From a virus, in IMG/VR virus record IMGVR_UViG_3300036768_000022, positions 1-43,683 of that record: 43,683 nt of DNA; one strand, given 5' to 3'. The position numbers were made by a program, and so were the translations under genes. The stretch's first letter is position 1; each line of letters opens with the position of its first letter. Under the pieces are notes generated by a model, which worked only from the letters and a program-made list of their open reading frames with translations, ran no database searches and had not been told where the DNA came from. Shown piece by piece: positions 5,133 through 41,670 of this stretch.

Positions 5133-6667
5133 GTAATAGAAAGTCTTCAGCTATTGAAGAAATCCGAGCACTAGCTGAAGAAGATTTGGTTACGTTTGCA
5201 CAACTTGTAAACCCAACCTACCTCTACGGAGACATACACAAGGAAGTGTATAAATGGTTTAGTAGTGAGGATGCAAAACCAAACCAGCTTCTTCTAATGC
5301 CTCGTGGCCATATGAAATCTCATCAGATTGCTGTATGGTGTGCGTGGTGGATTACAAAACACCCAGAAACTACTATTCTATATGTTTCCGCTACAGCTAC
5401 GCTTGCAGAAGCACAGCTTTTGGCGATTAAGAATATTCTGGACAGCCCTGTGTATCGTCGTTATTGGCCTGAAATGACTAATGTTGACGAAGGGAAAAGA
5501 GCACGTTGGACTACTTCAGAAATCATTGTAGACCATCCTAAGCGTAAGGAAGAGCGTATCCGTGATGCCACTGTAAAGGCTGTAGGCATTACCTCCACTA
5601 CTACTGGTCTACATGCTGACGTAATCATTTACGATGACGTTGTAGTGCCTGAGAATGCTTATACAGAGGATGGACGTACAAAAGTAGCTGCTGCTCTTTC
5701 TCAAATGGCCTCTATTAAAAATGCTGGTGGTATTACAAAGTGTGTAGGTACTCGCTATCATCCTAAAGATCAGTACGACTTGTTCAAGAATCAGCAAAAG
5801 AAAGTGTTTGATGATGAAGGAAATATTGTAGGCACTGAAGCTATTTGGGATGTTAAAGAATACGTCGTAGAAGTTGACGGAAAATTTCTATGGCCTAAAG
5901 CATATAGGGCAGACGGCAAGGCTTTTGGATTTGATTGGCCTACTCTGGCTGCCATTGAAGCAGAATACGAAGATAGGACGCAGTTTTACGCTCAGTATTA
6001 CAACAACCCTAATGATCCTGAATCTCAGCGTATCAGCAGGGACAAGTTTCAGTATTATGATGTCAAGTTTCTGAAGAATGAAGGCGGTCAGTGGTATTTC
6101 AAGAACAACCCTCTGAACGTGTACGCTGCCATTGACTTTGCGTTCAGCATGGCAAAGAAAGCCGACTTCACTGCTATTGTAGTGATTGGTGTTGATCCAG
6201 ATAATCATGTATATGTTTTGGACATTGACAGGTTCAAGGCAGACAAGGTTATTGAGTATTTCAATAAAGTGGCAGCATTGCACACCAAATGGGGCTTTAG
6301 GAAGCTTCGTGCGGAGGTTACAGTAGCTCAGACGGTGATTGTAAGGGAGCTAAAGGATTATTTGATTAGGGACGGCCTGAGACTGTCTATTGACGAGCAT
6401 CGCCCTAACAGACACCAAGGTGCCAAGGAAGAGCGTATTGCTGCTGCTCTTGAGCATCGCTACGACAATCAGAGCATGTGGCATTTCAAAGGAGGCTATA
6501 TCAGTATGCTGGAAGAAGAACTTGTTTTAGCTCGTCCTCCGCATGACGATATTAAAGATGCCTTGGCTTCCGCAGTGGAGATTGCAATTCCTCCTGCGAA
6601 TGCTCGCAAACGTAACACTAACAATAATGTAATTCAATTTCATGGCCGCTTCGGAGGTACATACTGA
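5129..6667 (+). CDS. terL: Terminase large subunit (TerL)
   Basis: 512 aa packaging ATPase and nuclease. The N-terminal ATPase shows a non-classical Walker A, MPRGHMKSH (about 57-65), as in other podovirus terminases, and a Walker B HADVIIYDD (about 162-170). The C-terminal RNase-H-like nuclease starts at YAAIDFAFSMAKKADFTAI (about 330) with the first acidic ligand in AIDFA, and a late HDDIKDALA supplies another Asp. The length is close to other T7/SIO1-type large terminases. It overlaps its upstream neighbour by 4 bases, and its stop overlaps the portal start. Confidence 0.92.
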   Translation: MSNRKSSAIEEIRALAEEDLVTFAQLVNPTYLYGDIHKEVYKWFSSEDAKPNQLLLMPRGHMKSHQIAVWCAWWITKHPETTILYVSATATLAEAQLLAIKNILDSPVYRRYWPEMTNVDEGKRARWTTSEIIVDHPKRKEERIRDATVKAVGITSTTTGLHADVIIYDDVVVPENAYTEDGRTKVAAALSQMASIKNAGGITKCVGTRYHPKDQYDLFKNQQKKVFDDEGNIVGTEAIWDVKEYVVEVDGKFLWPKAYRADGKAFGFDWPTLAAIEAEYEDRTQFYAQYYNNPNDPESQRISRDKFQYYDVKFLKNEGGQWYFKNNPLNVYAAIDFAFSMAKKADFTAIVVIGVDPDNHVYVLDIDRFKADKVIEYFNKVAALHTKWGFRKLRAEVTVAQTVIVRELKDYLIRDGLRLSIDEHRPNRHQGAKEERIAAALEHRYDNQSMWHFKGGYISMLEEELVLARPPHDDIKDALASAVEIAIPPANARKRNTNNNVIQFHGRFGGTY

Positions 6668-8412
6668 TGGCTGGTAAAGTTGCTGAAATCAAGGATATTC
6701 TTACGCCTCACGCATTGGCAAAGCATATTTCCAATCTTTATATTGAATGGGATAATCAAAGGCGTCCTTGGATTGAAGAAAAGAAAGAGCTTCGTAACTA
6801 TATCTTTGCTACGGACACCACTAAAACTACTAATTCCAAGTTGCCTTGGAAAAACAAAACCACTATTCCAAAACTCACCCAGATTAGGGACAACCTTCAT
6901 GCCAATTACATGAGCGCACTGTTCCCCAATGATAACTGGTTGAAATGGGAAGCCTATGAGGCTTCTTCAGCGGACAAGGAAAAGCGCAAGGTTATTGAAG
7001 CATACATGCAGAACAAGCTGAGGGAAAGTGATTTCTTTTCTACAGTGAGTCAACTGGTATATGATTATATTGATTTTGGCAACGCATTTGCCAACACTAC
7101 ATTCGTAGCCGAATACAAAGAAGACGCAGAAACTGGAGAAAAGATTGCGGGATATGTAGGGCCAAAAGCTTTCCGAATCAGTCCGTATGATATTGTGTTC
7201 AACCCTCTTGCCGTAGAATTCAAATCCTCTCCGAAGATTGTTCGCTATATAAAGACTATTGGGGAACTTGAGGCAGAGGCTGATGAATACCCTTCTCTTG
7301 GTTATCAGAAAGAGATTATTTCTGAAATCAAGAATGTTCGTAATCGCTTGTCCAATTACAGTGCAGCGGATTTGAACAAGGCAGCAGGTTACACTATTGA
7401 CGGGTTCGGTAGCTTGCACTCCTACTATCGTAGTGGTTATGTAGAAATTCTTGAGTTTGAGGGCGATCTGTATGACCTAGAATCTGGAACATTCTACAAA
7501 GATGCGCTGGTTACTATTGTTGACAGGACGAAAGTTATCCGTCATACGACGCTTCCGCATTGGTTTAGAGGTTCTAAGATTCGTCATTGTGGTTGGCGTT
7601 TGCGTCAAGATAATCTATACGCTATGGGGCCATTGGACAACCTCGTAGGGATGCAATATCGCATCGACCATCTTGAAAACCTCAAGGCCGATGCTATGGA
7701 TTTGGCAGTGCATCCTCCCATTAAAGTGAAAGGGAATGTAGAAGAGTTTGAGTGGGGGCCTGGTGCTGAAATCTTCATTGGTGATGATGGAGATGTAGGT
7801 GAGCTTGGCATGAACCTGAATGGCGTGATTGCTGCGCAATCAGCTATTGATGTGCTCTTGAACTACATGGAAGAAATGGCAGGCGCTCCCAAGCAGGCTA
7901 TGGGTATCCGTACTCCGGGCGAAAAGACTGCCTATGAAGTGCAGACGCTGGAGAATGCAGCAGGTCGTATCTTCCAAGAGAAAGTGACATGGTTTGAAAT
8001 CAACATCATCGAACCTCTTGTAAACGACATGCTGGAAGAGGCTCGTCGCAACATGGATGGTGCTGACTTGATCCGAGTTATGGACGACGACATTGGTGTA
8101 ATGGAATTTATGAACATCACCAAAGAAGACATCACTGCTAAAGGAAAACTTCGTCCTGTAGGTGCTCGTCATTTTGCTGCTCGTGCCCAACTTGTTCAGA
8201 ATATCTCCGGCATCTTTAACAGCGGAGTAGGGAAGATGATTGCTCCTCATGTTTCTGCTAAGGCTATGGCCCGCCTTGTAGAGGATGTCATGGGTCTGGA
8301 AAGATATGGGCTGGTTCAGGACAATGTTGCAGTCTTTGAGCAGGCTGAAACTCAGCAGCTTATGGGGCAAGCGCAGGAGAACAACGAAGTTAACGCTGCA
8401 ACACCCCTTTAA
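6667..8412 (+). CDS. Portal (head-to-tail connector) protein
   Basis: 581 aa. Text such as WDNQRRPWIEEKKELRNYI near the start, the NDNWLKWEAYEAS segment, and APKQAMGIRTPGEKTAYEVQ (about 420) match connector proteins of T7-superfamily podoviruses. It should form the dodecameric ring through which DNA enters. It starts directly at the large terminase stop and is followed by a structured intergenic hairpin at 8431-8499, then the scaffold block. Confidence 0.85.
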   Translation: MAGKVAEIKDILTPHALAKHISNLYIEWDNQRRPWIEEKKELRNYIFATDTTKTTNSKLPWKNKTTIPKLTQIRDNLHANYMSALFPNDNWLKWEAYEASSADKEKRKVIEAYMQNKLRESDFFSTVSQLVYDYIDFGNAFANTTFVAEYKEDAETGEKIAGYVGPKAFRISPYDIVFNPLAVEFKSSPKIVRYIKTIGELEAEADEYPSLGYQKEIISEIKNVRNRLSNYSAADLNKAAGYTIDGFGSLHSYYRSGYVEILEFEGDLYDLESGTFYKDALVTIVDRTKVIRHTTLPHWFRGSKIRHCGWRLRQDNLYAMGPLDNLVGMQYRIDHLENLKADAMDLAVHPPIKVKGNVEEFEWGPGAEIFIGDDGDVGELGMNLNGVIAAQSAIDVLLNYMEEMAGAPKQAMGIRTPGEKTAYEVQTLENAAGRIFQEKVTWFEINIIEPLVNDMLEEARRNMDGADLIRVMDDDIGVMEFMNITKEDITAKGKLRPVGARHFAARAQLVQNISGIFNSGVGKMIAPHVSAKAMARLVEDVMGLERYGLVQDNVAVFEQAETQQLMGQAQENNEVNAATPL

Positions 8413-8547
8413 ACGCTCTGAGAGCCATTCTAAGCCATTTTGAGAATAAAGGAATACCATCGCCTAGGGGTAGGCCGTAGAAGCTCTCAGAATGGCTTAA
8501 AAATATTTTTTATTTTAGATGGAACTTTCCTCGAAAAAGAGTGTCTA
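8413..8547 (+). repeat. Structured intergenic element, copy A
   Basis: TAAGCCATTTTGAGA (8431-8445) pairs with TCTCAGAATGGCTTA (8485-8499) over 15 positions with one G-U. The loop carries GGAATACCATCGCCTAGGGG (8451-8470). A T-rich run follows (8505-8515), so on the + strand it can act as a terminator or a processed hairpin. The core (read on the - strand as CCCTANGNGATGGTAT) and the AGCCATTCT arms recur at 41321-41415; the core recurs at 38118-38133. Confidence 0.7.
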
Positions 8548-8802
8548 ATGAACACAAAACTGATTAAAAATTTATCTGATATTGATAAAAAAGCTCTCAA
8601 ACAAGAGATAGAGTATTCATTATTTATTCCTATTCTTACTTCTATTCTTAAAGAAGAATTAGAGAGGAGTGTGGAAGAAATGAGTAAGATTGATAATTAT
8701 TCATCTCCTAACTTTAACCTAGTTATGGTAGATGCTTTAGCAACCCAACGAACTCTTAGGAAAATTCTTGACCTTCTTCCTAAGAAAGAGGAAACAAAAT
8801 GA
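8548..8802 (+). CDS. Small protein before the scaffold, unknown
   Basis: 84 aa starting MNTKLIKNLSDIDKKALKQE. The start at 8548 is chosen because the upstream extension (to 8440) runs through the structured element at 8431-8499. The ribosome site is weak (AAAGAG about 8 bases before). It is Lys- and Glu-rich and predicted helical. Its stop overlaps the scaffold start by 4 bases, which suggests coupling. No family recognised. A head-assembly role is possible from position. Confidence 0.6.
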   Translation: MNTKLIKNLSDIDKKALKQEIEYSLFIPILTSILKEELERSVEEMSKIDNYSSPNFNLVMVDALATQRTLRKILDLLPKKEETK

Positions 8803-9506
8803 GTGATGATAAAGTATTTTCAGGTAGTGAACAGACCAAAGTAGCTCCTGAAGCTCCTTCTGCCTCTGTTTCTATTCCAGACCCCTTGAAAGAACTGGTG
8901 GGAGAAGGTAAGAAGTATGCCAGTGTAGAGAAAGCTCTTGAAGCTCTCCCTCATGCACAGAAGCATATTTCTACTCTTGAAGAAGAAACCAAGCTACTTC
9001 GCCAGCAACTTGAAGAACTGAAACAGGCAAAGGTAGCTCAAGAAGAACTTCTTCAGTACATTAAGGAAAATCAGCAGGCCACTAATGGGAAGGTGGAAGA
9101 GACAGCTTCTCGTCCTTCGTTAGATGTGTCGGATATTTCCAAGCTTGTTCAACAAGAACTTAGCAAGGCCGAACAACAGAAGATTGCTCAGGCTAACGCA
9201 GCTAAAGTAAGGGAAGCACTAGTAGCCAAGTTTGGCGACAAGGCTCAAGAAATGTGGGAAGGCAAAGCCAAAGAACTTGGCATTGGCACAGATTTCTTGA
9301 ATGAGGCTGCTATTCGCTCTCCTAAAGCTGTTTTGGCTTATTTCAATATTTCTGATAAGCCTTCTACTCCTGCTCCGTCCAAAGGTAGTGTAAACACTGC
9401 TGGATTTGCAGGCGTTCCTGATAACACTCCGAAACGATCCATCTTCAAATATAGCGACACTAAGAGCCTAGTTGATGCTTGGCGGGCCGCTAAACCTAAC
9501 GAATAA
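8799..9506 (+). CDS. Capsid scaffolding protein
   Basis: 235 aa. It is acidic, with a long coiled coil around HISTLEEETKLLRQQLEELK (about 46-90), a Pro/Ser/Ala-rich linker, and it sits directly before the major capsid gene, as gene 9 does in T7. Scaffolding proteins fill the procapsid and are released on packaging. Sequence identity to any one family is low; the call rests on composition, coiled coil and order. Confidence 0.8.
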   Translation: MSDDKVFSGSEQTKVAPEAPSASVSIPDPLKELVGEGKKYASVEKALEALPHAQKHISTLEEETKLLRQQLEELKQAKVAQEELLQYIKENQQATNGKVEETASRPSLDVSDISKLVQQELSKAEQQKIAQANAAKVREALVAKFGDKAQEMWEGKAKELGIGTDFLNEAAIRSPKAVLAYFNISDKPSTPAPSKGSVNTAGFAGVPDNTPKRSIFKYSDTKSLVDAWRAAKPNE

Positions 9507-9522
9507 CCTAGAGGATAATTAA

Positions 9523-10470
9523 ATGTCTCAGAACACCACTAATACCACGGCTTTTATCGAAGCCCAACAGTACAGCCAGTTTATTCTGGAACACTTGTAC
9601 GATGGCCTGCTGCCGGACACCTTCACTCGTGACGTTAGTGATTTTGGTCAAGGCACCACCCTTAACATCAAAACTGTTGGTGACACCACTCTGCAAGAAG
9701 TGCAGGAAGAAGTGGCAATGGCTTATCAGGCCATCGACACTGGCACCGTAACCCTGTCCATCACTGACTATGTAGGCGATGCTTGGAGCATCTCTGACGT
9801 TCTGCGTCAGGATGGTTCTCAGATCGAACAACTCCATGCCATGCGGGCTGCTCGTGCTACCAAGGCCATTCAGGAGTATTTCGAGTCTCGTATGCTGGCT
9901 GTTGCCAACCGATCTCAAACCAACAACTCTGCCAACCTCATCAACGGCTTCGCTCATCGCGTAGCTTCCGCCGAAACTGGTAACGTAGCTTCTCTGAAGC
10001 ACTTCCTGCAAATGAAGCTGGCTTTCGATAAGGCTAACGTAGACCAGTATGCTCGTATTGCCATTGTTGATCCGGTGGTAGAGGCCACCATCAATGAAAA
10101 CTTCACTGCTGCTAACGCCATCTCCTACAACCCGATGTTTGAAGGCATTGTGAACGAAGGCTTTGCTCGTGAGCACAAGTTCGTCAAGAACATCTTTGGC
10201 TGGGATGTGTACACCTCCAACCGTCTTGACAAAGGCACCTTCGGTGATGGCACCACCTCTGTCACTGGCGCTTCTGCCAACCTGTTCATGTGCGTAAGCG
10301 ATGACTCCACCAAGCCGCTGATGCGTGCATGGCGTCAAATGCCGAAGGTTGAAACCTATCGTAACAGCAAGCTGAAGCGCGATGAGTTCGACGTAACTGC
10401 TCGCTTTGGTATTGGTGCTCAGCGTGTTGACACCCTTGGCGTTCTTATCACCTCTGCCACCAACTACTAA
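9523..10470 (+). CDS. Major capsid protein
   Basis: 315 aa, HK97-fold type as in T7-superfamily podoviruses. Recognisable text is QYSQFILEHLYDGLLPDTFTR (start), GTTLNIKTVGDTTLQEV (about 44-60) and ITDYVGDAWSISDVLRQDGS (about 80-100). Codon use is visibly more regular and C-rich in third positions than in neighbouring genes, as expected for the most abundant virion protein. AGAGGATAATTA with GAGG about 9 bases before 9523 serves as the ribosome site. It is followed by a second highly expressed gene and a strong terminator. Confidence 0.88.
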   Translation: MSQNTTNTTAFIEAQQYSQFILEHLYDGLLPDTFTRDVSDFGQGTTLNIKTVGDTTLQEVQEEVAMAYQAIDTGTVTLSITDYVGDAWSISDVLRQDGSQIEQLHAMRAARATKAIQEYFESRMLAVANRSQTNNSANLINGFAHRVASAETGNVASLKHFLQMKLAFDKANVDQYARIAIVDPVVEATINENFTAANAISYNPMFEGIVNEGFAREHKFVKNIFGWDVYTSNRLDKGTFGDGTTSVTGASANLFMCVSDDSTKPLMRAWRQMPKVETYRNSKLKRDEFDVTARFGIGAQRVDTLGVLITSATNY

Positions 10471-10484
10471 TTGAGGAATTAATC

Positions 10485-10949
10485 ATGGCCTTTGAAAACA
10501 GCGCAGGTATCGGTACCCGTACTAACTACGGTGTACGCAAAATCAACGAGAAGTTCGGCGGTAAGCAGGCTTCTGATGTAATCCAATACGTCGAAGTAGT
10601 TTTTGACTACGACGACCTCCCGACTGCCGGTGCAGAGATGGAAGCCCTTATTCCGGCTTATAGCCTGATCAAGAGTGCCTATCTGCAAGTGATCACTCCG
10701 TTTGCTGGCGGCACTTCCTACAACATCGGTCTGGCGCAGACTAACGGCACTGCCGTTGATGCAGACGGCCTGTTTGCTGCTATTGCCACTGCTTCCCTGA
10801 CTCCGGCTGGTAAGTGGAACGCTGGTACTGGTGCTCTGGTAGGTGCAGGCATTGGCGCTAATCCTTGCGTAATCACTGTTGCAGCTACTGGCACCTTCAC
10901 TGCTGGCAAGGCACGTCTGGTGGTGGAATACATTCCGGGCACTGTGTAA
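10485..10949 (+). CDS. Abundant minor head protein (decoration candidate)
   Basis: 154 aa, MAFENSAGIGTRTNYGVRK..., rich in Ala, Gly and Thr; probably a beta-sandwich. It shares the optimised codon use of the capsid gene, lies 14 bases after it with a good GAGGAATTA ribosome site, and is directly followed by a terminator. This is what a capsid cement or decoration protein would look like, but I cannot name the family. Confidence 0.65.
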   Translation: MAFENSAGIGTRTNYGVRKINEKFGGKQASDVIQYVEVVFDYDDLPTAGAEMEALIPAYSLIKSAYLQVITPFAGGTSYNIGLAQTNGTAVDADGLFAAIATASLTPAGKWNAGTGALVGAGIGANPCVITVAATGTFTAGKARLVVEYIPGTV

Positions 10950-10973
10950 TTAAGCCAGCTTTGGCTTAACAGC

Positions 10974-11006
10974 AAAGGCTGGCTCCTAACGGGGCTGGCC
11001 TTTTTA
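10974..11006 (+). terminator. Terminator after the capsid genes
   Basis: AAAGGCTGGCTCC (10974-10986), loop TAAC, then GGGGCTGGCCTTT pairs over 13 positions with three G-U pairs and runs into TTTTT. A terminator right after the capsid genes parallels T-phi behind T7 gene 10. It probably sets a high capsid-to-tail transcript ratio. Confidence 0.85.
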
Positions 11007-11023
11007 ATTGAAAGGATATAGAA

Positions 11024-11611
11024 ATGGCATATCATTCAAACCTCACTGATCCAGATATCCACGAACCCAAGGGCATTAGCTCTGCCGCTGCTGGCACAGT
11101 TTATGTAGCCAATGGTGCTGGTAGTGGTCGATGGCTCTCTACTCACTCTTATGGAAATCTTCACATTGATGTAAACTCTACAGCAAATTCTGTAAGCCTT
11201 CCTGCCGCTCTAGACGCCACGTTTAATACAAACACTGACTATCGTAAAGTCAATGCTGCTGGCATGTGGCAAGCCGGAGATGCTTCAAACATCACTTTAA
11301 GTCCTTCTAATGGTGAAATTGTAATTACGCAAGCAGGCGCTTATAACATCTGTTTCTGGACAACTTATCAAATCGCTACAGCTTCCGCTAGAAAGCTGGC
11401 TTGGAAATATGCAATTAATGGTGTCCTCTCCACTCTGAAAATTATCGACACTACAGATGGTGCAGGCAATATTTATTCTATCTCTGCTTCAGCCATTATT
11501 GACAATCTCTCTGTCGGAGACAAGATTAGCATTTATGCAGCTTGTTCTGCTGCCGAAACTCTTGTAATCACTGATGCCAATATCTACGCAGTTCTTGTAA
11601 AGGCTTCTTGA
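11024..11611 (+). CDS. Head-fibre-like protein with C1q/TNF-type C-terminus
   Basis: 195 aa. The N-terminus HSNLTDPDIHEPKGISSAAA and VYVANGAGSGRW is a segment I have seen in many podovirus head-fibre or minor structural proteins. The rest (NAAGMWQAGDASNITLSPS, ITQAGAYNICFWTTYQI, DKISIYAACS) has the alternating pattern of a C1q/TNF-like beta-sandwich, which trimerises. It has its own AAAGGATATAG ribosome site just after the terminator. Function in the virion surface is inferred. Confidence 0.65.
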   Translation: MAYHSNLTDPDIHEPKGISSAAAGTVYVANGAGSGRWLSTHSYGNLHIDVNSTANSVSLPAALDATFNTNTDYRKVNAAGMWQAGDASNITLSPSNGEIVITQAGAYNICFWTTYQIATASARKLAWKYAINGVLSTLKIIDTTDGAGNIYSISASAIIDNLSVGDKISIYAACSAAETLVITDANIYAVLVKAS

Positions 11612-34580: not shown

Positions 34581-35091
34581 AACGTCTTTTCCTTTATTTT
34601 AGCCCATTCCCCAAGCATAATCATTTGGTCTATCGTGGCGTTAGATTTCATAGTGTTAGCTAGTCTTGAAATAACTTGTATATTTCCTTTAACGTATCCT
34701 GTTTCTGGAGTAATTCTATTAAGAGTTGGCGAATCGTTAGAAAATATATTGTTGTCAGCCTTCAGTTTAATTTCAAGGATTGGACATACATTTGGAATAA
34801 CAATATCATCTGCTGTGATGTCAAAAGTCAGTCCTTTAATTTAGCTCGTCTTTTAGCATCGTGAAGCATTCTACGATGTTTGTTGTTTTTTTGTAATAAT
34901 CTTTTACGCTCCTTGTTCGCTTGCTCATATTTTTTGTGATACTTCATCAAGAGCTCTTTGTTAGATTGTATGTATTCTTTTGCACACCGTTTACACATAT
35001 TTTGCAATCCGTCTTTATTAGTCTTGTTTTTATTAAACTCACTAACAGGTAATTCTTGTCCGCACTTTGAACAAACTTTAGTATCGCACAT
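34574..35091 (-). pseudogene. Free-standing EndoVII/HNH-type homing endonuclease, frameshifted
   Basis: The frame from ATG 35091 gives 87 aa: MCDTKVCSKCGQELPVSEFN and NMCKRCAKEY (two CxxC pairs) then a basic helix, ending RRAKLKD-stop at 34828. The -1 frame continues as GLTFDITADDIVIPNVCPIL, NDSPTLNRITPETGYVKGN and QVISRLANTMKSNAT to TAG 34574. Joining them at the AAA run (34837-34835) gives about 172 aa, the normal size and motif order of this family. A one-base deletion is the simplest cause. It lies just upstream of the intron-bearing polymerase gene; its start overlaps the helicase stop (TAATG). Confidence 0.75.
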
Positions 35092-36044
35092 TAAAAATCC
35101 ACCTCCTCTTCTGTTACAATCTCCTCGAACACTTCCTCAAGTCTGCTTGTGTCCTTGTCGTAAAATACTTGCCCCGCCTTCCCTGTTAAGCCGAGATATC
35201 TATTCTTTAGGATGCGGAATGTTGTAGTGTTACGGATGCGTTCATCCTCAGCCTGCCCGTTACGCTCTAGGCCAATGACAATATCAGCAAGCTGTGCCAG
35301 ACCAGCAGAGCCACGGAGTTGAGCAAGGGATGTTTGTCCTCCCTCTTCGTGGGCCTTCCCTTCAGGGCGCTTCAAATGTGAGATGGCAATAATACCAACA
35401 TTCAGTTCTTCAGACAAGGCTTTGAGTTGATGGGCGATGTTGTCCAATGCCCTTCGTTCATCCCCTGTTTCCATGCCTGATACAAGGCGGGAGACGTGAT
35501 CGAGGATGATGTATTCACAACCCATTGTCCTGAAATAACGGATGTCCTTCTTGACGCTCTCCCATTCCCCATTCCAGTTGTTAGACATAAGGAACAGTTT
35601 GTCCTTGAAATTCTCCACAAATATTTGATACTGTTCATCACTGCTCACCTCCGATTTATTGTATCGAAGGTTGGTTCCTACGAACGGAGAGAGCATGTCC
35701 ATCACTGTAAGGGCTGGAGAAGACTCTAGGTAGAGGCCAGCAACCTTGTGCCCTTTCAGCATGAGGTGGGAGTGGATGGCCATTGCGAATGTTGTTTTCG
35801 CTACGCCAGATCCTGCCGTAAGCAACACCACTTCTTTCTTCCTAATGCCTCCTGTCATTTCTGTCAGCTTTTCCCAAGGGTAGTTGACAGAGGATTGCTT
35901 ACGATTGGAGAGGTAGGCTGTGTATTCATCCCACAACCCATCCCCGAATACAATCCCTTCAGGGGCATAAGGCTTGGCTCCGAAATAGGCCTGCCAAAAC
36001 CTAGCCTTGCTATTGTTTAGGAGAAGGTCGTTGATGTCTTTCAT
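35091..36044 (-). CDS. Replicative helicase (DnaB/gp4 C-terminal type)
   Basis: 317 aa. RecA-like core: LLTAGSGVAKTTFAMAI (Walker A, about 75-91), CEYIILDHVSRL (Walker B), IIAISHLKRPEG (sensor) and LRGSAGLAQLADIVIGLERN. This is the helicase half of T7 gp4; the primase half is a separate gene at 36225. The Walker A has Ala where GxxxxGKT needs Gly (GSGVAKTT), an odd change. The start overlaps the stop of a small interrupted gene (GCATGA). Confidence 0.88.
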   Translation of the reverse strand: MKDINDLLLNNSKARFWQAYFGAKPYAPEGIVFGDGLWDEYTAYLSNRKQSSVNYPWEKLTEMTGGIRKKEVVLLTAGSGVAKTTFAMAIHSHLMLKGHKVAGLYLESSPALTVMDMLSPFVGTNLRYNKSEVSSDEQYQIFVENFKDKLFLMSNNWNGEWESVKKDIRYFRTMGCEYIILDHVSRLVSGMETGDERRALDNIAHQLKALSEELNVGIIAISHLKRPEGKAHEEGGQTSLAQLRGSAGLAQLADIVIGLERNGQAEDERIRNTTTFRILKNRYLGLTGKAGQVFYDKDTSRLEEVFEEIVTEEEVDF

Positions 36045-36224: not shown

Positions 36225-36926
36225 TTACCACCTCATAATCTTAGCTTTGTTACCAATCAAACTCGCCACTTTAGCAGCAGCGGCTCTTCCTGCCTCGTCC
36301 TGATCAAACCCTAGGATGATTTCATTGAACCCTGCAATGAAGGACAAATTAGCTGCTACGTCACGTTCAGCAGCAGAAGCCCCATTAGGGACAGAGACAA
36401 CACAAGGATCATACTGAGGATATTTCTCCTTTGCCATCTGCCAAGCTGCCATTGCATCGTATTCTCCTTCAGTGATAAGGAGTTTGTTCCCGCTCTTAGG
36501 GCATTGCATTTGCCCAAACAGCATCACCTCCTTGCCTTTCCAAGTGCCTACGGATGGAAGGAATTGCTTGCCTTCGTACTTCCTAGCCTTCCATCCAATC
36601 AGGGTCTCATCCGTAGTGTAGACAGGGAAATACACTTCATCAGGTTCCCCTGTTTCCTCAGACAAGGCAATACGGACGTTGTAATGCTCTACACAAGGAA
36701 GGCCAAGCATACGATGAACGATGGCTTGTTGTGGTAATTTAAGAACGTCTTCAATATTCAATTTGCTATATTCCTCTTGCTTTGTATAGCCTTCAGGGGC
36801 TTCCTTGTATCCACAACGATTGCAATATTTCCACCCTGTGTCGAAGTGAATAAGATGGTTGCCTGTTCTGTCACGTCCATGTGAGCGACAGGAAGGACAT
36901 GCACTATCGCCTACGATCTTGCTCAT
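36225..36926 (-). CDS. DNA primase (zinc finger plus TOPRIM)
   Basis: 233 aa. ACPSCRSHGRDRTGN and WKYCNRCGYKEAP give a four-Cys zinc motif (about 10-39). TOPRIM motifs follow: LLITEGEYDAMAAWQ and IILGFDQDEAGRAAA (Glu and DxD metal site). This equals the primase half of T7 gp4 without the fused helicase. The ATG overlaps the stop of the damaged small gene upstream (AAATGA). Confidence 0.9.
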   Translation of the reverse strand: MSKIVGDSACPSCRSHGRDRTGNHLIHFDTGWKYCNRCGYKEAPEGYTKQEEYSKLNIEDVLKLPQQAIVHRMLGLPCVEHYNVRIALSEETGEPDEVYFPVYTTDETLIGWKARKYEGKQFLPSVGTWKGKEVMLFGQMQCPKSGNKLLITEGEYDAMAAWQMAKEKYPQYDPCVVSVPNGASAAERDVAANLSFIAGFNEIILGFDQDEAGRAAAAKVASLIGNKAKIMRW

Positions 36927-38521: not shown

Positions 38522-38665
38522 TTACCAATGATCAAGAATCGACCAAGGCTTCCACTCATCCACCTCCGCCCGAAGCGCCTCGATCTCGTCAACCGCATCC
38601 CGCCAGATTGGCTCGTGAGGCTCACGCCGTGATTCGATGCGTAGGCGTTCGATGATGTCAGTCAT
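38522..38665 (-). CDS. 47-aa protein of a G+C-rich island
   Basis: MTDIIERLRIESRREPHEPI... then DEIEALRAEVDEWKPW. Short proteins starting MTDIIERLR with DEIExLRAEV are frequent in phages and plasmids of high-G+C bacteria. AGGAGA stands 5 bases before the ATG. It overlaps the upstream 136-aa gene by 8 bases. Codon use is G+C-rich in contrast to the neighbours. Function unknown. Confidence 0.65.
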   Translation of the reverse strand: MTDIIERLRIESRREPHEPIWRDAVDEIEALRAEVDEWKPWSILDHW

Positions 38666-39068
38666 TGCTGTTCTCCTTCGACAGGCTCCCAGAGCGCTCA
38701 AACGGAACCTTCATTCGCGCCGCCAAGGCTGCTATGGCAGCCGCACACTCGGCTCCGCACGCCAGCCTGCTTTCCTTCGCCAGTGCTTCATCATCCAAGT
38801 CTTTGCAAATCTGTGCTGCCTCCTTCAGCACGTCGCGCATATCCTCCACATACTCTTGTGTCGCACGCCGGTTGCCCTCCCACCGACGCTCGGTTTCTCC
38901 GCGCAACTCGCGCATCAGGTAGAGGATGATGGCCGCAGCGTCCGTGAGCGCCGCGAACAGCGCGGGGTCGCTTTTGTGCTGCTCGGCCAGCCCCGAGCAC
39001 ACCCGAGCGTGTGAGGCGGCCTCTTCGAGAACATCTCTCAGATCATCGACCAACTGAACGTTCATCAT
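38658..39068 (-). CDS. 136-aa helical protein of a G+C-rich island
   Basis: Two repeats of one pattern are visible: VQLVDDLRDVLEEAASHARV near the start and EYVEDMRDVLKEAAQICKDL near the middle, each followed by a similar stretch. It is Ala-, Glu- and Arg-rich and helical. Base composition near 60% G+C by eye against about 42% around it suggests recent transfer. GGAG lies before the ATG. Function unknown. Confidence 0.65.
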   Translation of the reverse strand: MMNVQLVDDLRDVLEEAASHARVCSGLAEQHKSDPALFAALTDAAAIILYLMRELRGETERRWEGNRRATQEYVEDMRDVLKEAAQICKDLDDEALAKESRLACGAECAAAIAALAARMKVPFERSGSLSKENSND

Positions 39069-39077
39069 TTGCTCTCC

Positions 39078-39962
39078 TTAAGCCACCCACTTCTCGATCA
39101 AGTCTGCGAGTTCTTCAGGGTAGTTGGTGATATAGAACAGAATTGAATCATAATCCATTCCAGCGAACATATCATACAATGAAAAATATAACTCTAAAGG
39201 ATAATCTAGTGTTTGCTCATCTTCATGATTGAACACATCCCATTGATGGCGTTTTGTTTTCGTCATGGCATTCCTCAAGTTAAATAAAAAGGATACATCT
39301 AGAAGTTCTCTTGATGTATGGGCATACTCATATCCTACGCTTATGTTTGTGCACTCTGGGATAATTCCAACGTAATTAGCTGTATCCGTGAATATCCCTC
39401 CACTATCTGGTTTCATATACAGGCCATTATCAAGAAAGTATTCACTAAGCTGATTAGCAAATTTATTTGAACAGCATCTTCCGAACTGATGAGTGATAAT
39501 GCTATTAGTTCCTTTTCTGTCAAATGCTACAGCATGTGTAAATTTAGAAAGAAACTCTTTATAGTTTTTCGCCAGATAGGATGATCCAATTCCTCCGCAT
39601 TCTTCCCCTCTATGGAATATATATGTACCTTCCACTCCCTCTTTTATCATTTCAAGGAGAAGCCACATTCCAGCTCCATCGTCCGCTCCAAGAATGCTAT
39701 GTCCATTAGCTCTAATAATATCCCCTTCTACAATGATGGAGTTATGCACATTATCCTTTAAATAATGCACAGTATCCGTATGACAACTCCATAGGATTTG
39801 AGAATCTCCATCTCCAACATCAATAATGTAGGCCATATCCTCTCCTTGCTCGTCCTTAACAATCGTAGGAGTTAAAGGGAGAATATATTTCTCGATAATG
39901 ATTTTCTCTCCATCACTTCCATGTGCCCTAGAGTGGCTAAGAATATCAATTAATGTTTCCAT
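39078..39962 (-). CDS. Cocatalytic zinc peptidase (M20/M28/M42-like)
   Basis: 294 aa from ATG 39962 (GGAG 6 bases upstream; in-frame ATGs at 39974 and 40004 lack a good site). All expected metal and catalytic residues are visible: SCHTDTVHY (His61, Asp63), LGADDGAGMW (Asp94), HRGEECGGIG (Glu120, Glu121), AFDRKG (Asp148) and YAHTSREL (His215). This is the two-zinc aminopeptidase/deacylase pattern. No signal peptide, so it acts in the cytoplasm. The upstream gene ends just before it, so both are co-transcribed. Substrate unknown. Confidence 0.8.
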   Translation of the reverse strand: METLIDILSHSRAHGSDGEKIIIEKYILPLTPTIVKDEQGEDMAYIIDVGDGDSQILWSCHTDTVHYLKDNVHNSIIVEGDIIRANGHSILGADDGAGMWLLLEMIKEGVEGTYIFHRGEECGGIGSSYLAKNYKEFLSKFTHAVAFDRKGTNSIITHQFGRCCSNKFANQLSEYFLDNGLYMKPDSGGIFTDTANYVGIIPECTNISVGYEYAHTSRELLDVSFLFNLRNAMTKTKRHQWDVFNHEDEQTLDYPLELYFSLYDMFAGMDYDSILFYITNYPEELADLIEKWVA

Positions 39963-39975
39963 TTTATTCTCCATC

Positions 39976-41304
39976 TTAATCAATTGTAAGGTTATGTTCT
40001 TCAAGATCTGTATCTTTATGCACAGTAAACTTTTGACCTTCTTGGTTATAAGCTGTTAGTGTGTCATAATACATGGCATAGATATTGCCATCTGGGTCTT
40101 CAATATCAAGGGCTAAAACGGACGGATTATTCACTGACACTATTCCTCGACTAGTGAACACGACATCGTCTATATGAAGCCACCTTTCCTCAATTTCCGA
40201 GTAGTAGAAGCCGTTACACTCAGCAGCTTCTTCTGTGTAATATTCTCCATCAATTTCAACAGCATTTTCTATCATGATATATCCTTCAGAGCGCCCTCTT
40301 ACGTATCCCCATACGTAATCTTCATTTATGCAGGCTGTGCACCTTATCACATCATACTCATCAACATATATTTCTCCGTGATCTCGATCATCATGAGAAG
40401 CGCCACAATGAGGGCAAATCCATCTCATACCAATTAGGCCAGTGGAATCCGATTTGTATCCGTCTTCTGAAACTAGAAGATAATCACCCATGTCCTCCAC
40501 ACAGTCGTAATGTCCGTCGAGATAGGGGCAGACAATACTATTACCAAGCTCAACCCTGTTTAGGATTTGCCCTTTAAGTGCCTTTTTGTCATGTTTAAAT
40601 CCTTTAGCAATCAAGGATGTTTCCAGTGAATCGTTTCCGTACACCCTGGCAAATGTTTTGTATCCAATGTTAACGATTGCTCTTGCGTACACTTTAAACC
40701 CTTCTCTGTTGCCGTCCCATTCTTTATTGGCAAGATATGCTAAAGCAAGCGAATTTTTTGTATTGGCATATGCCCTAACAGGGTGATACTCTCCATGGCA
40801 CATGTCATCTAGATAGCGCCCTTCGTCTCCCCTGTTGTACACCATGCAAGATGAAAACCCATGTCCTGATTCATAAACAGCTTCCCATCCATCAGGATCG
40901 GTGTTGGGAATGAAGAACACTTCTTGCTCGCCATAAATTGCGGCGAACTTTTCAGAAATATTCTTAATTTCTTTCTCCGTCATATCAGTGTATCGACGGA
41001 GGAATCTACCAATCGTGGTTTTCGTGCGGATTCCTTCACCATCTGATGTTTCCTTCATTAGGTTATCAAATGAACGGAAATAGGTGATATATCCACGATC
41101 TTTAGAAAGGAGAGGAATGTATTTGTAGGATAAGTGTGTATCCATCCCTAGGTTATCCAGCATGTCGTATGAAAAACACAACCAGTCAACAATTTTCTTA
41201 TACTTTCCTTTTAGTTTATTATAGTTTGTTGTTGAGAGGGCAATGACAAAGGATTCTACGTCTTTTTCTTTGATAGCTTTTCTAATTCTTTTCCAAGCTT
41301 TCAT
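39976..41304 (-). CDS. Unknown 442-aa protein with zinc-finger segment
   Basis: The start at 41304 has GGAGG 5 bases upstream; the frame extends further only into the tRNA region. Features: basic N-terminus (AWKRIRKAIKEKD), GHGFSSCMVYN and HPVRAYANTKNSLALAYL in the middle, then WICPHCGASHDD and IRCTACINEDY (two CxxC pairs, about 285-320), and a repetitive acidic C-terminus. I recall similar phage proteins of unknown role with SCM...HPVRxYA...LALAYL. It precedes the zinc peptidase gene. Confidence 0.7.
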   Translation of the reverse strand: MKAWKRIRKAIKEKDVESFVIALSTTNYNKLKGKYKKIVDWLCFSYDMLDNLGMDTHLSYKYIPLLSKDRGYITYFRSFDNLMKETSDGEGIRTKTTIGRFLRRYTDMTEKEIKNISEKFAAIYGEQEVFFIPNTDPDGWEAVYESGHGFSSCMVYNRGDEGRYLDDMCHGEYHPVRAYANTKNSLALAYLANKEWDGNREGFKVYARAIVNIGYKTFARVYGNDSLETSLIAKGFKHDKKALKGQILNRVELGNSIVCPYLDGHYDCVEDMGDYLLVSEDGYKSDSTGLIGMRWICPHCGASHDDRDHGEIYVDEYDVIRCTACINEDYVWGYVRGRSEGYIMIENAVEIDGEYYTEEAAECNGFYYSEIEERWLHIDDVVFTSRGIVSVNNPSVLALDIEDPDGNIYAMYYDTLTAYNQEGQKFTVHKDTDLEEHNLTID

Positions 41305-41415: not shown

Positions 41416-41429
41416 CCCTATGTATGTAG

Positions 41430-41501
41430 TGGGCCTAACAGGATTCGAACCTGTAACCTGTCGATTATGAGTCGATTGCACTGCCTTTGTGCTATAGGCC
41501 C
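41430..41501 (-). tRNA. tRNA-Met(CAT)
   Basis: Full cloverleaf: acceptor GGGCCTA/TAGGCCC, D arm GCAC/GTGC with GG in the loop, anticodon loop CTCATAA, T arm ACAGG-TTCGAAT-CCTGT. The anticodon stem has one mismatch at the outer pair. CCA is not encoded. A G1-C72 pair rules against an initiator. An Ile tRNA (modified CAT) cannot be excluded. Confidence 0.88.
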
Positions 41502-41506
41502 AGGAT

Positions 41507-41593
41507 TGGTGCGGATAGAGGGACTCGAACCCTCAAGGCATAAAGCCAACAGATTTTAAGTCTGCTATGTTTACCGATTTCATCATATCCGCA
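41507..41593 (-). tRNA. tRNA-Leu(TAA)
   Basis: 87 nt with encoded CCA. Acceptor TGCGGAT/ATCCGCA, anticodon loop CTTAAAA in CAGA/TCTG, long variable arm TTGGCTTTATGCCTTG, T arm AGGG-TTCGAGT-CCCT. It reads UUA codons. The gene text resembles E. coli tRNA-Leu(UAA). Confidence 0.92.
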
Positions 41594-41670
41594 TGGCCTG
41601 CCGTGAGGGACTCGAACCCCCGACCCAGTGCTTAGAAGGCACTTGCTCTATCCGACTGAGCTAACGGCAG
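41594..41670 (-). tRNA. tRNA-Arg(TCT)
   Basis: 77 nt with encoded CCA. Acceptor CTGCCGT/ACGGCAG, D arm GCTC/GAGC, anticodon AGTGC-CTTCTAA-GCACT, T arm GGGGG-TTCGAGT-CCCTC. It reads AGA/AGG, which are rare in many gammaproteobacterial hosts but frequent in this phage. Confidence 0.93.

Follow-up and report, generated by a model that had tools for sequence, protein, structure and literature searches.

The locus

Two adjacent genes on the minus strand of the window (the whole 43,683-nucleotide virus record IMGVR_UViG_3300036768_000022) are considered here. One, at 39078–39962, encodes a 294-aa peptidase of PHROG 4191 with a single-domain clan-MH catalytic fold. The other lies directly upstream, at 39976–41304, and encodes a 442-aa protein with an SCM-type core and C-terminal LIM-like zinc-finger repeats, hereafter called the partner. 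The peptidase gene starts with the ATG at 39962, with an SD-like GGAG 6 nt upstream, and ends with the stop codon at 39078–39080; its start lies 13 bases past the stop of the preceding partner gene at 39976. The partner gene starts with the ATG at 41304 and has the SD sequence GGAGG before it. The original prediction placed the peptidase right behind the tRNAs, but these are at 41429–41670, and the partner gene sits between them and the peptidase.

Active site and fold of the peptidase

The assignment to PHROG 4191, annotated as "peptidase", comes from a profile match with E = 1.3e-68 that spans residues 1–247 of the protein and positions 5–249 of the 342 in the profile. In addition, the PepT-like model TIGR01883 of NCBIfam matches with E = 2.5e-8, and Pfam M28 (PF04389) matches with 21.3 bits, its curated cut-off being likewise 21.3. 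The best solved sequence relatives are the PepT-type tripeptidases 3gb0 and 3rza, and a PDB search with a profile of 66 peptidase relatives also returned PepT-type enzymes as best (E = 7e-10). By homology to PepT, the metal ligands are H61 (codon at 39780–39782, on the minus strand like all those that follow), D94 (39681–39683, the bridging ligand in a GADD motif), E121, D148 (39519–39521) and H215 (39318–39320). The last of these lies in an M20B-like GYExxHTxxE motif, as seen in the alignment with PepT 3gb0. The general base is E120, which is encoded together with E121 in a GEECGG motif (39600–39605), and D63 (39774–39776) is the aspartate of the HxD motif. All of these residues are invariant in 172 of 172 aligned relatives, as are R149, which stands next to D148, and T192, D193, C204 and E219; of the alignments made of the family, a diverse one (A1) gave no usable pattern, and a narrower one (A3) took its place.

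The AF2 model of the peptidase, with a mean pLDDT of 91.8, is confident over residues 1–240 and ends in a helical tail of ~50 aa modelled with low confidence. It has the alpha/beta fold of clan MH zinc peptidases, and a Foldseek search with it had PepT 3gb0 at the top of the list (E = 4e-13) and TET1, M42, CPG2 and DapE below it. The earlier placement of all five metal ligands and the catalytic Glu, made from the sequence alone, is correct, far beyond chance, and the fold search agrees with it. The accompanying claim of a two-zinc hydrolase with all active-site residues in place is upheld by profile, conservation and fold, while zinc binding and activity stand as predictions. As far as such a prediction can reach, the peptidase is almost certainly a two-zinc hydrolase of MEROPS clan MH that is competent for catalysis.

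Its position within the clan is mixed. The closest solved relatives are Peptidase T/M20B enzymes (PDB 3gb0, 3rza and 1fno), whose HxD, GADD, GEE, D and GYExxHTxxE motifs align with those of the window peptidase. However, the D-to-H spacing in 3gb0, as judged from the alignment, is roughly 180 residues, whereas D148 and H215 of the window peptidase are 67 residues apart and the median in 164 relatives is 65. Since these 67 residues are all that separates the fourth from the fifth ligand, the M20 lid/dimerisation domain, which occupies ~110 residues at this place, is absent, and the AF2 model likewise lacks it. Enzymes of the M42/TET type (2wyr, 3cpx and 1y0r) share the fold, with a TM-score of about 0.6, and a GTD-like motif, but their PDZ-like insertion between the first His and the bridging Asp has no counterpart in the window peptidase, where H61 and D94 are 33 residues apart and the model shows no domain between them. 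M28 enzymes such as Streptomyces SGAP (1cp7) and Legionella LapA are, like the window peptidase, single-domain proteins without a lid or a PDZ-like insert. They differ from it in a sequence match weaker than that of PepT, and no secretion signal was noted in the window peptidase. Membership in clan MH is supported and strict membership in M20 or M42 is not; the peptidase is a lid-less, single-domain clan-MH enzyme that combines M20B-like motifs with an M28-like architecture.

A widespread phage peptidase family

By tblastn, 382 phage records match the peptidase. Grouped by host, these comprise 230 from Klebsiella, 51 from Pectobacterium, 42 from Vibrio, 10 from Thermus, seven each from Bacillus and Enterococcus, and others. 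A scan of viral_contigs with the window peptidase as single query gave no match. The PHROG 4191 proteins of Autographiviridae, exemplified by HOS10_gp09 of Drulisvirus and HOU16_gp11 of Phimunavirus, belong to the same family and have the same active site at 30–41% identity to the window peptidase, and their genes lie, as in the window, directly behind a partner gene in the early block. A "putative peptidase" without a stated function is listed among the conserved genes of KP34-like phages (PMC4411677) and of PhiM1-like phages (Phimunavirus), in the latter case explicitly in the early region (PMC6115819). In KP34-like phages and in Phimunavirus alike, the peptidase counts among the conserved early genes (PMC4411677, PMC6115819). 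It had been proposed that such enzymes are not part of known phage replication or assembly; that they would be foreign to phages is contradicted by the 382 records and the two genus papers. The survey of phage homologues revealed a widespread family and took away its novelty to phages. Taken alone, the enzyme is another member of an already annotated, uncharacterised family of phage peptidases; no paper on the function of PHROG 4191-type peptidases was found in the searchable literature, outside which most subscription journals lie.

The partner protein

The core of the partner follows the pattern SCM...Y...R...PYxD. C153, M154, Y179, R208, P260 and D263 are invariant in 172 of 172 copies, the codon of Cys153 in the SCM motif being at 40846–40848 on the minus strand, and S152, Y222, Y261 and G235 are nearly invariant. 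The conservation of the Cys, Arg, Tyr and Asp makes an enzymatic role plausible on the grounds of sequence. Behind the core, as placed in the alignments, most copies have at least two CxxC pairs of LIM-like appearance. Among the weak Pfam hits of the partner family, LIM is the most frequent (5 of 78 members), and LIM domains also come up repeatedly among the weak PDB hits obtained with Foldseek. The window partner itself has no Pfam match, its PHROG matches are weak and lead to families of no assigned function, and its zinc region alone found no phage relative by tblastn.

The AF2 model of the partner is fair (pLDDT 87, pTM 0.69), and Foldseek found no significant structural relative for it in the PDB. 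GNAT-fold enzymes are over-represented among the weak hits, and GNAT-type hits turn up in both structure libraries; those in the PDB include ATE1, MprF and SSAT, all of them non-significant. A match in BFVD is a phage "amidoligase" (E = 6e-3). A GNAT reading was set aside after hhalign gave the core a probability below 1% against a GNAT profile, compared with 99% for a GNAT positive control. A PcfJ reading was likewise dropped, with Pfam PF14284 present in 0 of 9 peptidase-carrying genomes or records. PHROG 18912, which flanks the peptidase in Enterococcus phages, has by eye a similar "SSC" motif but showed no profile relation to the partner in a comparison that used a thin, two-sequence profile.

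Linkage of the two genes

The association of the two genes was surveyed from both sides. Starting from the peptidase, the partner was present in the fetched flank of 79 of 80 viral loci, the single exception starting at a contig end. Starting from the partner, the peptidase was found downstream on the same strand in 72 of 80 viral loci, 70 of them within 300 bp; the two samples overlap in some contigs and are not fully independent. The genes of a pair usually overlap by 1 or 4 bases (−1, −4) or are separated by +1 to 50 bp. Two of the eight partner loci without a peptidase are cut by contig ends. The remaining six come from five different contigs, in none of which a peptidase occurs anywhere in the record. 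Pairwise distances of the two proteins are correlated across 135 non-redundant pairs (Mantel r = 0.74; 0 of 2000 permutations as high), although some correlated divergence is expected from adjacency and shared descent. The flanking genes are unshared, the largest neighbour cluster covering 5 of about 98 loci. Two-way linkage, unshared flanks and correlated distances together define the pair, and not the peptidase alone, as the conserved unit, and the two proteins are very likely to be functionally coupled.

The arrangement recurs in unrelated phages. Immediately upstream of the peptidase there is a partner homologue in the Rhizobium phage Pasto, in Nobby and phiKpS2 and in Bradyrhizobium phage BDU-MI-1, and the partner holds the same place in Vibrio phage OY1, Shigella phage Buco, Acinetobacter phage Indie and Pseudomonas phages Ep4 and C171. 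In Cellulophaga phage phi38:1, it is directly downstream of the peptidase. Some Thermus and Bacillus phages carry a peptidase without a detected partner. With such phages and the partner-only contigs both on record, the two genes are not strictly dependent on each other. No paper on the pairing was found in the searchable literature, which excludes most subscription journals, and its near-obligate occurrence across phage families and plasmids appears to be undescribed.

Plasmids, giant phages and other settings

In bacterial contigs, the pair occurs near genes for ParB, DUF7146/toprim and integrase. The Sphingopyxis indica plasmid pMC4, which is conjugative, carries it between ParB and toprim genes, and HEPN and Abi genes follow. 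A Limnohabitans plasmid probably also carries the pair, as a gene for a 437-aa hypothetical protein precedes the peptidase there. Neither protein matches a PADLOC defence model.

Three phage genomes of 636–735 kb each encode 4–8 peptidases and 1–10 partner-core paralogues, and one site among them has three partner copies around one peptidase. The 735-kb phage LR756501.1 (loci L159, L158 at 6905–11170, and L160) has no fewer than ten partner-core paralogues, including a tandem array of four, and five peptidases. In the Rhizobium phage Pasto, an ArdA-like antirestriction gene (L002, 1450–1956) is located directly upstream of the pair. In a partner-only phage contig (L198), the gene behind the partner (5253–5729) looks RadC/JAB-like by eye; its product would have a zinc-peptidase-type fold, and a non-orthologous replacement of the peptidase is possible in this single case.

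LC-MS/MS of particle preparations detected both pair proteins in the Drulisvirus fHe-Kpn01. It also flagged RNA polymerase, exonuclease, endonuclease VII, terminase and endolysin, and a virion role read from these data was set aside on account of such clearly non-structural proteins. The detection shows that the pair is expressed, not that it has a structural role. Two genes upstream of the pair in this phage lies the gene for gp10 (L126, 3721–3930), a 69-aa protein that is toxic in E. coli (PMC7291057).

A possible role in conflict with the host

The best explanation, to which we give a probability of about 0.55, is that the partner and the predicted two-zinc hydrolase form a two-gene early host-conflict unit. 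The peptidase would be the second gene of this unit, behind the upstream partner with its zinc-finger part and SCM core, and the unit would act early upon cell entry, against a host target or a defence. With its zinc-finger part and its core, the partner would recognise or modify the target; an amide or peptide bond made, exposed or presented in this step would then be hydrolysed by the peptidase. A conflict module is favoured because phages and conjugative plasmids both enter new cells, and the chances of such a role for the pair seem about evenly balanced. Beyond what is observed, namely the fold family and invariant active site of the peptidase and the near-obligate same-strand pairing, correlated divergence and spread of the pair over unrelated phages and plasmids, we infer a common substrate, a host-factor target and an order of steps; the partner-then-peptidase chemistry is tentative. 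In its most specific form, which is likewise speculative, the pair would be an undescribed enzymatic conflict system, common to unrelated phages and conjugative plasmids, in which the invariant Cys/Arg/Tyr/Asp core of the partner, steered by its LIM-like zinc fingers, creates or recognises a mark attached by an amide bond to a host protein, a tRNA or a defence signal, and the lid-less two-zinc hydrolase cleaves that mark. The partner exists alone in a few phages, and for this reason it may be the primary actor, with the peptidase acting after it or as an antidote.

Rac of phiKMV-like phages offers a precedent, as an early protein that modifies proteins and is linked to the cleavage of a host protein: RNAP alpha is reported to be acetylated and then cleaved (PMC7552054 as cited in PMC7824862). 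Rac is a GNAT protein, however, whereas the relationship of the partner to GNAT enzymes received no support from hhalign.

Other roles have to be weighed against this explanation. Among solved structures, aminopeptidases of the PepT, TET and M42 types come closest, and the peptidase is an early gene in several phages, so a stand-alone nutritional exopeptidase might be considered, one that trims the peptides of host proteolysis and refills amino-acid pools for phage translation. Such a role leaves the near-obligate linkage to the partner unexplained, as well as the 4–8 paralogues in single large phages, and plasmids that carry the pair need no translation burst. With one fixed partner and carriage by conjugative plasmids, a lone amino-acid scavenger is unlikely. 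Among the roles proposed earlier, the freeing of amino acids fits the linkage poorly, while a conflict with the host or its defences fits better with the early regions, the conjugative plasmid and the ArdA neighbour in one phage. The pair could also consist of a damaging agent and its antidote, the partner harming the host and the peptidase, or the complex of both, limiting or reversing the effect. The tight gene order with overlapping ends, the presence of both genes on plasmids and the invariant Cys, Arg, Asp and Tyr, which suggest that the partner is an enzyme, agree with this idea; the occurrence of the partner alone in about five contigs speaks against it, and overall it is rather unlikely. 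The toxicity screen of fHe-Kpn01 proteins left out those associated with the virion, and hence the partner too (PMC7291057).

Two further possibilities seem highly improbable. Both products are annotated as virion-associated in fHe-Kpn01 by LC-MS/MS, as would be expected if the peptidase processed a phage protein during maturation of the particle or of other proteins. Yet lysate carry-over is likely, since non-structural proteins were flagged in the same preparation, and the exopeptidase-type fold, the early gene position and the presence on conjugative plasmids do not suit maturation. The remaining idea is a nucleobase or small-molecule modification, in which acyl or aminoacyl groups would be attached by the partner and removed by the M20-like enzyme. 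It draws on the deacylases within M20, such as DapE and carboxypeptidase G2, whose structures came up in the fold search, and on the weak GNAT-type hits of the partner model in both libraries. These hits contrast with the hhalign result for the partner core, below 1% where the positive control reached 99%, and DNA-modification genes were not seen beside the pair as a rule.

The two-gene unit, rather than the enzyme alone, would be what matters. The pair belongs to the conserved early genes of widely used Klebsiella phages and recurs in unrelated phages and conjugative plasmids, and it offers a concrete handle on the early functions of KP34-like phages. If it counters host defence, it would name a class of targets so far absent from defence catalogues.

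The window phage

The terminase and portal of the window phage are closest to those of ICP2/PA11-type podoviruses, ICP2 being a member of the Zobellviridae, and the phage looks Zobellviridae-like. As phages of the ICP2/PA11 type are absent among the peptidase matches listed, the pair looks like an accessory acquisition in the window phage.

Three additional features were observed elsewhere in the window. At the contig end (43440–43683), the minus strand begins with a long TA dinucleotide run, and the record may therefore be incomplete there. Primase and DnaB-type helicase parts are found on two ORFs, at 36225–36926 and 35091–36044, both of which fall into one PHROG (239). Directly downstream of the peptidase, a patch at 38523–39068 has a GC content of 0.55–0.62, compared with 0.36–0.46 around it, and contains a 136-aa ORF (38658–39068, minus strand) that matches no known family; this patch looks recently acquired.
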